DNA of 64,000 nt from Pseudomonadota bacterium (GTDB taxonomy: Bacteria > Pseudomonadota > Alphaproteobacteria > Dongiales > Dongiaceae). The stretch lies in the NCBI GenBank assembly GCA_021792365.1, contig JAJYUT010000007.1, forward strand, positions 124,001 through 188,000, given 5' to 3'. The translations under genes were made by a program, and so were the position numbers. Positions 19,171 through 21,360 of this stretch are shown here, in pieces (the stretch's first letter is position 1; the number at the start of each line of letters is the position of its first letter). The notes under the pieces were generated by a model. That model was not told where the DNA came from. It saw only the letters and a list, made by a program, of their open reading frames with translations, and did not search any database.

Positions 19171-19279
19171 GCGCGATCGGCGCAGTGGCCTGTGCCAAAA
19201 CAAGCGACCTTTCTCCGCAACGTGCTTGCGGCATGCAATGTTCTCCTATGATCACAAAATCGATTATGGGAGTTCATCA

Positions 19280-19480
19280 ATGGATAAGTCTCAAATCCGC
19301 GAACACATGAAGGTCGTTGGTTCAGATGGGCATTCTGTCGGGAGCGTGGACCGGGTCGAAGGCGAAAGGATCAAGCTCTCCAAGAGCGATTCCGCTGACG
19401 GCCAGCACCACTTCATTGACATGGCCGACGTTGCTGACATTGAAGGCGATGAAGTTCGCTTGAGGAAAGACCGCGCTTAA
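19280..19480 (+). CDS. DUF2171 domain protein
   Basis: The product is 66 residues, with GGGAG seven bases before the ATG. The pattern IREHMKVVGSDGHSVGSVD, then HHFIDMADV and a final acidic-basic stretch, is the DUF2171 module (PRC-barrel-like), a small protein common in alphaproteobacteria and often stress related. The gene is AT-richer than its neighbours and is followed by a strong intrinsic terminator. The function is unknown. Confidence 0.85.
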   Translation: MDKSQIREHMKVVGSDGHSVGSVDRVEGERIKLSKSDSADGQHHFIDMADVADIEGDEVRLRKDRA

Positions 19481-19540: not shown

Positions 19541-19902
19541 GGCGATCCCTCGCACATTGGCAGGTCGGAAACACAACGAAAGCCACCGTCTGAGTGCTGC
19601 AAGGCCAAGAGCTTTTTGAATGCCTCAAGCTACACGGCAAGTAGTGAGATCAGCGGTCGCGTTCACTTGCGAATCTCCTCTATCGATGGTCCTTCCACGA
19701 TTGCAGCTGCGAAGAGACGGCAGATGTCCGATAAGCGTCCTTGAAGCTCCTGACGAGCTTCTAGTGCGTCACTCGCGCAGGTTTACGGACATAAGTTCAA
19801 ATGGGTCTGTCAATCGTCCGCTAGGTGCGACTGGTTCACATGAACCATCGCACCCTACGCAGAAACTCCCGGCCATAGCGATTGCCGCGAAGTTGCGCAG
19901 AC
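19541..19902. other. Intergenic stretch before the tRNA-derived repeat
   Basis: About 360 bases with mixed composition. A 102-codon frame at 19620-19928 runs into the tRNA-derived repeat and has no recognisable domain or good ribosome binding site, so it is not called. The only structure seen is the long hairpin at 19824-19854. Confidence 0.5.
19824..19854. repeat. Long inverted repeat (14-pair hairpin) beside the tRNA-derived repeat
   Basis: GGTGCGACTGGTTCA (19824-19838) pairs with TGAACCATCGCACC (19841-19854) with a single bulged base and only CA between the arms. No T tract follows. It lies about 50 bp from the degenerate tRNA-Val copy and could be a recombination-associated structure; its role is unknown. 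Confidence 0.55.
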
Positions 19903-19954
19903 TTGAATGGTGGGTGCGACAGGGGTGAACCTGTGAGCCCTACCGTGTGAAGGT
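19903..19954 (-). repeat. Degenerate copy of the tRNA-Val 3' half (attL-like)
   Basis: Aligned to 21039-21091, about 50 of 53 positions are identical, with one single-base gap. The match runs from five bases beyond the tRNA CCA end through the T arm and variable region into the anticodon stem and then stops abruptly. The copy lacks the 5' half of the tRNA and has a changed T loop, so it cannot be a working tRNA. Confidence 0.85.
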
Positions 19955-20027
19955 GTGGCACACACAACTCGCGCTTCTTGCAGTGCAACTATAGATAGTC
20001 GGTTTTTCGAGTCACATCTAGACGTTG

Positions 20028-20053
20028 GAGGACGGCGCTGTCGCGCCGTCCTC
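20028..20053. repeat. Perfect 11-pair inverted repeat inside the element
   Basis: GAGGACGGCGC (20028-20038) and GCGCCGTCCTC (20043-20053) pair perfectly around TGTC. It is GC-rich in an AT-richer surrounding. It lies downstream of the minus-strand gene at 20193-20810 and might end its transcript, but there is no T tract. Confidence 0.6.
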
Positions 20054-20078
20054 TACGTCTGCGCCGATCAGTGCGATG

Positions 20079-20103
20079 TTTTTGCCTTCAGAACTGGCAA
20101 AAA
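20079..20103. repeat. Eight-pair inverted repeat inside the element
   Basis: TTTTTGCC (20079-20086) and GGCAAAAA (20096-20103) are perfect inverted arms around a nine-base spacer, 25 bp from the GC-rich hairpin. The role is unknown; a protein-binding site or replication or recombination structure is possible. Confidence 0.5.
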
Positions 20104-20192
20104 TTGACACATGGTTGCGATTTTTTTGGCACTTGCGTTGCACAACTATTGTATCCGCTTAACAACTCGAGTCGCAGGGCGACTGCGCTGTT

Positions 20193-20810
20193 TTAGTTGC
20201 CACCCTTCAATCCCTCAGCTTCTGCATCGGCAATCTCGGTGAGGTAAAGATCAGCCTGGAGATCCGGATAGGATGAGATCTGTCTCAAGAACTGGATCCA
20301 TGGGCGATCTGGTCCGGCGTAGTCACCTGGTTGAACGGTGCACCGGCGAGCAAAGCCGGCTGCAATCTCTCCGATGATTCGGACCTGAGCAACTGCGCCT
20401 CCCTTAGCGTCCTCGATCCTTTTCTGATCGCCACCAAAGCCCTCGATCTGCCAATAGGCCACAGCACGCTTCACATCGCCAAGATGCGATGAGATTGCTA
20501 GCCCGCCGAGGGAACATTCCTTGGATAACTTGTCACCAGGGCCACTCCTGATTTCCACTATTCGCCGGAACAGGGGGCGCACGTAGTCGACATTCAGCTT
20601 GCTCCAGGTTGGTATTGCCGCTCTTGCCCCATCCACATCTCCTGCCCCCGCCTTAGTGATCGCCGCGGCAATGGCTTCATCGAGGCGTGCCATTAGCTCA
20701 TCGGACGTTGGCGGCCGGAACGCGCCGAAGCGCGCGGCAATTGCGAGAACGATGATGACCGCCACGGCTGAGGCCAGTATCCAGGGCGCCGTTAAGCGAT
20801 TGAGTTTCAC
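20193..20810 (-). CDS. Hypothetical membrane-anchored protein within the tRNA-Val element
   Basis: The product is 205 residues from a GTG at 20810, seven bases behind GAGGA; a TTG at 20846 would add 12 residues. One membrane helix (about residues 8-28) is followed by a mostly helical soluble part with four Cys residues or fewer and a C-terminal acidic tail. No family was recognised. Composition is AT-richer than the flanking chromosome. It is the only gene in the interval bounded by the two tRNA-Val 3' copies, so it is likely cargo. The topology suggests an N-in single-pass protein with the main domain outside the cytoplasm. Confidence 0.65.
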   Translation of the reverse strand: MKLNRLTAPWILASAVAVIIVLAIAARFGAFRPPTSDELMARLDEAIAAAITKAGAGDVDGARAAIPTWSKLNVDYVRPLFRRIVEIRSGPGDKLSKECSLGGLAISSHLGDVKRAVAYWQIEGFGGDQKRIEDAKGGAVAQVRIIGEIAAGFARRCTVQPGDYAGPDRPWIQFLRQISSYPDLQADLYLTEIADAEAEGLKGGN

Positions 20811-21360
20811 CAAGACGTCCTCAGGGGAGCACTGCGCGCAGCTCAAGAGACTATGCCAGCCGAATTACTCGAACGTTATCGTGGACAAGGCGGCCTGTGA
20901 GCAGGCGGGCTATCCAAAGATGTTACGTGAAAACAGGACAGAACCGCGCGGATTGGCACAAAATTGACTCAGTTGGCGAAGCCAGCTCGTCCAGCGTCAA
21001 TAAGAACGCTGCGTAAGTCTCAGAAAAGACTCGGCGATTTGAATGGTGGGTGCGACAGGGATTGAACCTGTGACCCCTACCGTGTGAAGGTAGTGCTCTC
21101 CCGCTGAGCTACGCACCCGGCCATGAGGCAAAGCCCGCTTCGGGCTTGCGGTCCGGTTCAGGACAGGCGCGTTGTTTACTGGCCGGCTTCCGCGCTGTCA
21201 ACCGGCGCCAAGCAGCGCGCAACCCTGCCGCCCGGCACGCCGCTGCCCGCGCCTTATTCTTGCCGTCATCGGATCGTGAACTGCTCCGGCTTGACAGGCG
21301 GGGCCGCTGGGTCGTCCTCTGGCAGGCGCGAAGAAACCGCGTAGATCAGGAGCTTAGGTC
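20811..21360. other. Non-coding stretch holding only tRNA-Val
   Basis: Apart from the tRNA at 21044-21118, no gene is supported. The frames at 20599-20967 and 21123-21364 are shadows or uncharacteristic, with no ribosome binding site and no domain. The base composition changes from AT-richer to the GC-rich chromosomal norm across the tRNA gene. Confidence 0.5.
21044..21118 (-). tRNA. tRNA-Val (anticodon CAC)
   Basis: On the minus strand the full cloverleaf can be folded: acceptor GGGTGCG/CGCACCC, D stem GCTC/GAGC, anticodon stem CTACC/GGTAG with loop TTCACAC giving anticodon CAC, T stem ACAGG/CCTGT with loop TTCAATC, discriminator A and an encoded CCA. It reads the valine codon GTG. Its 3' half is duplicated about 1.1 kb downstream at 19903-19954. 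Confidence 0.97.

Follow-up and report, generated by a model that had tools for sequence, protein, structure and literature searches.

A tRNA-Val(CAC)-bounded 1.1-kb interval in a Dongiaceae bacterium, a probable remnant of an integrative element with a counterpart in Dongia deserti

In a 64,000-nucleotide stretch of contig JAJYUT010000007.1 (hereafter, the window), a 1.1-kb interval lies between an intact tRNA-Val(CAC) gene and a second copy of the 3′ part of that gene. The locus is probably a deletion derivative, resembling a cis-mobilizable element (CIME), of an integrative element or prophage inserted at tRNA-Val(CAC). It looks like a small and mostly ordinary integration scar, the twist being that a different gene occurs between similar ends in the sister species Dongia deserti.

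Results

Duplication of the 3′ Part of tRNA-Val(CAC)

The single tRNA that ARAGORN predicts in the window is tRNA-Val(CAC). The following features delimit the interval:

21044..21118, minus strand: intact tRNA-Val(CAC), the integration target (ARAGORN)
21044-21091, minus strand: attachment core adjoining the right end, i.e., the 3′ part of tRNA-Val(CAC)
19903..19955, minus strand: second copy of the 3′ part of tRNA-Val(CAC), the far-end attachment core (from the sequence and the repeat finder)

The far copy reaches up to the anticodon arm and has the same orientation as the tRNA, from which it differs by two substitutions and one absent base; the 53-base match with about 50 identities described in an earlier note on this DNA is thereby borne out. 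The repeat finder returned the match in two blocks of the same orientation, 19900-19924 against 21036-21060 (96%) and 19926-19954 against 21063-21091 (97%), at a spacing of 1136-1137 bp. Two 17-nt pieces of the core each occur exactly twice in the window, allowing up to three mismatches; in dinucleotide shuffles, the mean number of matches was 0.27 and 0.05, with two matches in 2 and 0 of 100 shuffles, respectively. The duplication of the core exceeds chance.

The interval between the cores (19956-21043) measures 1,088 bp, in agreement with the roughly 1.1 kb next to an intact tRNA given in the earlier note, which had also called it AT-richer. Its GC content is indeed 55.5%, against 66.0% for the window, but the low GC starts near 19200 and is therefore not confined to the interval. 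One gene-like frame occupies the larger part of the interval:

20193..20846, minus strand: sole gene-like frame of the interval, an orphan of 217 amino acids with a hydrophobic N-terminal stretch

Translation more likely starts at a GTG at 20810, which would yield a protein of 205 amino acids. This foreign-looking gene has a third-position GC of 0.61; for the adjacent DUF3108 gene, the value is 0.84. The 217-amino acid frame scored weakly and below threshold in Pfam, NCBIfam and PHROGs, with no PHROG match under 0.05, and gave nothing in PADLOC; across 61 genomes, it found only itself, and it had no match in plasmids or phages and no confirmed match in viral contigs. The fold predicted from the single sequence is poor (mean pLDDT 50.1, pTM 0.33). 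Separately, the DUF2171 gene at 19232-19474 has an 80.7% identical stretch in genome G003, about 13.4 kb downstream of tRNA-Val(CAC) and in the same relative orientation.

Related Ends and Unrelated Interiors in Dongia deserti

The locus was compared in 16 other genomes of the family, using stretches of about 8-13 kb in ten of them and 2-3 kb in six, from which a distant second copy could escape. A second copy of the core adjoining the tRNA was found in only one of the 16, that of D. deserti, so the situation which the earlier note had linked to an old duplication, the same interval at the same place in all relatives, does not obtain. An exact-pattern scan of a species-level genome collection likewise returned one record, Dongia deserti SYSU D60009, and this stretch carries the same right-arm frame as the window (see below). 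The D. deserti core copy is identical to the core in 49 of 49 bases.

The two loci share their ends, which in the window comprise:

19956..20165, no strand assigned: left arm (left end of the element), related to D. deserti L021 5686-5810
20020..20060, no strand assigned: palindromic repeat within the left arm; the left arm of D. deserti lacks it
20095..20111, plus strand: motif TGGCA-AAAATTGACACA in the left arm, a possible arm-type site
20912..21043, plus strand: right arm (right end of the element), adjoining the intact tRNA, related to D. deserti L021 6546-6656
20954..20971, plus strand: motif TGGCACAAAATTGACTCA in the right arm, in direct orientation to the left-arm motif

The right arms are identical in 89 of 109 aligned bases, with 26 gap columns, and reach a local score of 42 (at most 15 in 500 shuffles); the left arms score 29 (at most 14 in shuffles). 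The interiors score 12 and 11, against a shuffle mean of 12, and the outer flanks 8, against 9 for shuffles. Since the ends score above the shuffles and the interiors like them, the elements of the two species, located at the same tRNA, have related ends and enclose single genes that are unrelated. The inner gene of D. deserti specifies an LprI-like protein of 157 amino acids (PF07007, 8.6e-8) on the strand opposite to that of the window's inner gene, and the intervals are similar in size (1,088 bp in the window, 971 bp in D. deserti). Outside the element, at L021 4335-5229, D. deserti has two abutting fragments with close copies elsewhere, one (94%) in contig C7 of the D. deserti genome G002 and the other (88%) in contig C17 of the genome from which the window comes, and its outer flank is, therefore, rearranged.

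The palindromic repeat of the window's left arm (repeat arms at 20028-20038 and 20043-20053) looks dispersed, because short matches to it occur in several family genomes. The element TGGCAcAAAATTGACaCA, which occurs in both window arms in direct orientation (20095-20111 and 20954-20971), may be an arm-type binding site. In 17 family genomes, an 18-nt version of the motif, with up to two mismatches, had one match each in the genome of origin, in D. deserti and in G012, and the reversed-motif control had none. The G012 version reads TGGCACAATATTGGCACA; the stretch that carries it includes no tRNA and, by eye, no integrase among the listed frames. Used as a DNA query against 385 genomes of the class, the right arm gave two weak matches beyond its own locus, both set aside by eye, one being a dispersed repeat and the other lying in a gene-like region.

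The Right Arm Resembles the 3′ End of an Integrase Gene

A new observation made here is that the right arm has the appearance of a gene's 3′ end, based on the way in which its sequence has diverged between the two species. The frame concerned is:

20952..21065, plus strand: frame IGTKLTQLAKPARPASIRTLRKSQKRLGDLNGGCDRD with its stop inside the tRNA, the probable 3′ end of a lost integrase gene

Common to both species is IGTKLTxLAKPARxAS...; the window frame has its stop at 21065, and the D. deserti frame is IGTKLTSLAKPARSASKKGLDDSDGGCDRD, the stop of which likewise lies inside the tRNA. Over 48 ungapped bases, there are 11 differences between the two, distributed 4/1/6 over codon positions 1/2/3. 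Among the changed codons, five of seven are synonymous in this frame, as against one of seven and none of eight in the other two frames, a result matched by 3 of 20,000 random placements.

A frame constrained at the protein level and terminating within the target tRNA would be the expected residue of an integrase gene abutting its attachment site, which is why we read the right-arm frame as probably the 3′ end of such a gene. Its position, together with two viral integrases that have IGTKLT in their tails, suggests a lost integrase gene. The two viral-contig genes (L138 and L139; 417-418 amino acids) carry IGTKLT in the C-terminal tail behind the catalytic region, a match of only six residues in two closely related genes; L138, the one that was scanned, matches PF00589 (1.7e-23) as well as integrase PHROGs. 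In L138 and L139, GATTGGCACAAAAYTGAC lies within the 3′ part of the integrase gene, while in L136, L137 and L140 it is located less than 400 bases from the contig start, where a different frame is open. In all five viral contigs found (L136-L140), GATTGGCACAAAAYTGAC is followed by ACA. The gene-end reading and the binding-site reading of the right motif copy are mutually compatible.

Searches for a full-length integrase with the right-arm tail returned none in phages, only five matches at E 6-8 in plasmids, and none with the pattern used on viral sequences. The pattern RIGTKLTQ occurs in five viral contigs; two of the five read it in frame, and neither resembles an integrase. In the 385 genomes of the class, the tail peptide had a match at E up to 1 in 119, and below 0.01 only at its own locus; the five next-best matches were translated, and none resembles an integrase tail. 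Upstream, the window continues with YPKMLREN in a frame other than that of RIGTKLT, and the window's stump is therefore broken there.

The earlier note had stated that the interval has no integrase. This stands as regards a complete gene, since all 14 integrase-family matches in the genome of origin lie on other contigs, but it needs qualification in that the tRNA-proximal end probably preserves the 3′ end of one. One of the genome's integrase genes, of 424 amino acids (contig C3; L078 3706-5067), ends just before a half tRNA-Val that by eye matches the GAC type; contig C21 carries the intact tRNA-Val(GAC). We do not propose the contig C3 integrase as a helper, its flanks being unlike the element arms by eye.

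tRNA-Val as an Integration Target in Other Genomes and Phages

The 47-nt core had matches with up to three mismatches in 50 of the 385 genomes of the class. Setting aside pairs that consist of two different tRNA-Val genes, same-strand copies on one contig occur in just one of these 50 (G383), 17.5 kb apart; both are full tRNA-Val(CAC) genes, with an integrase in between. Three genomes (G095, G222 and G253) have identical core copies on two contigs each, and in G233 about 80 bp separate the end of an integrase frame from an intact tRNA-Val(CAC). The same half of the tRNA is present over 46-48 bp (87-93% identity) in the phages phiAP1, ctQWt234 and Labrenzia V1, with an integrase gene near the core in the last two.

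Origin of the Locus and Alternative Explanations

Integration targeted at the tRNA, which the earlier note had proposed, is the best reading of the core copy, the low-GC interval, the related ends in D. deserti and the use of the same target elsewhere. An integrative element, either a prophage or a genomic island, would have recombined into the 3′ half of tRNA-Val(CAC), most likely by means of a tyrosine integrase as the site-specific recombinase. The entering element presumably came with a copy of the tRNA 3′ part, by which the tRNA would have stayed intact at the 20912-21043 end, while the old tRNA end (19903-19955) was displaced by 1.1 kb. The integrase gene would have adjoined the tRNA, pointed toward it and overlapped it by the last few codons. 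Later, nearly the whole integrase gene and most of the element would have been lost, leaving a scar of two attachment cores, two ends and one gene, the excision of which would now require an integrase from elsewhere. Loss of the interior best explains the shortness of the interval, because the tRNA-proximal end looks like the surviving end of a gene.

The evidence on age conflicts, and the two Dongia scars may represent either one ancestral insertion or two insertions of related elements. The similarity of the right arm (82% of aligned bases identical) is close to that of the intergenic DNA across the tRNA (80%, with many gap columns in the latter), which suits one old insertion. At the four-fold sites of three neighbouring genes, however, the window and D. 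deserti are only 65% identical (460/703), and the chance of an unchanged D. deserti core would be 0.006 if each lineage had changed by 10% and 1e-4 if by 17%; these values suit a more recent insertion, ongoing recombination or homogenisation with the tRNA. A scar of shared descent by itself leaves unexplained the different inner genes in intervals of similar size, as well as the unchanged D. deserti core.

Those very features would follow if the locus were a living, non-autonomous element of minimal size, with ends (core plus TGGCAcAAAATTGACaCA) recognised by an integrase that a phage or island supplies in trans, and with an exchangeable one-gene cargo brought into tRNA-Val(CAC). In favour of such an element are the related ends, which in the two species flank unrelated genes, one each, on opposite strands; the similar interval sizes; the motif in both arms in direct orientation; and the unchanged D. 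deserti core. It is nevertheless unlikely: its members number only two, D. deserti being the single record from the genome-collection scan and the viral scan being empty (both with exact patterns, which diverged members could escape); no helper integrase was found whose arms match; the right arm resembles a broken gene end instead of a purpose-built one; and the arm similarity is what one old insertion would give. The wider proposition that Dongia harbours a family of cassettes of about 1 kb, with fixed ends, an integrase acting in trans, one exchangeable gene, docking at tRNA-Val(CAC) and no recombinase of their own, is more doubtful still. A partial duplication of the tRNA in which no recombinase took part would account for a nearby copy in the same orientation, but it predicts neither the related ends with different contents in D. 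deserti, nor the low GC, nor phage attachment cores with the same limits, and it is highly improbable. The preferred reading, a deletion derivative of an inserted element, accounts for the odd shortness of this tRNA-bounded interval by treating it as what is left of an integrative element, and the case illustrates that a lost integrase may be recognised, when family searches fail, by coding-type conservation of a frame ending inside the target tRNA. Should the exchange of cargo prove true, the locus would indicate to what extent an element that targets a tRNA can shrink without losing its mobility.

Comparison with Known Elements

According to PMC5704250, a CIME is an element which has lost the genes for integration and transfer and kept attL and attR. 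The window locus has two same-orientation cores at the 3′ part of a tRNA, the predicted attL and attR, which bound DNA without a complete integrase or visible transfer gene: integration genes are represented by only a probable 3′ stump (none of the 14 matches being on the contig), and the one gene-like frame matches no family above threshold. As to descent from an ICE or IME, by which CIMEs are also defined, the probable integrase-gene stump is seen, and full-length relatives of its tail were not found. Given these structural features, the locus would be a new, very small case of an already known type of remnant element. It is unlike a CIME in its size of about 1.1 kb with a single gene, in the probable integrase-gene stump left behind, and in not being in tandem with a functional element in the window. 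It lacks the integrase of its own that marks an IME or autonomous genomic island, and, at 1.1 kb with one frame, the structural and lysis genes of an intact prophage.

Among the Dehalococcoides ssrA islands, 15 lack the integration module, according to PMC3146451. The integrase-less islands described there are likewise bounded by an RNA-gene end and a direct repeat and vary in cargo; they differ in being arrayed in tandem with relatives that carry an integrase and use a serine recombinase (PMC3146451), none of which was found here. Acetobacter phage phiAP1, ctQWt234 and Labrenzia phage V1 resemble the locus in the tRNA part that serves as attachment core, and differ in the sequence of that core, in arms that are dissimilar by eye and in being whole phage genomes. 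In the one literature library searched, neither Dongia genomic islands nor integrase-less tRNA-Val islands with attL and attR led to a report of this case.

Other Half tRNA-Val Copies

On another contig, G001 has a decayed solo half tRNA-Val(CAC) (L094 5923-5969), which adjoins, by eye, an aldehyde-dehydrogenase-like frame. By eye, this half tRNA lacks arms like those of the element, and it was left out of the members. The half tRNAs of G003, G011 and G012, which come nearer to tRNA-Val(GAC), were likewise left out. In G011 (L096 5499-9714), an interval of 4 kb separates a half from a whole tRNA-Val(GAC), and the sequence adjoining the whole tRNA resembles, by eye, the 3′ part of an integrase gene. 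In G012, the interval from half to whole tRNA-Val(GAC) spans 24 kb (L097 4154 to L098 12343), and an integrase-like frame adjoins the half copy.
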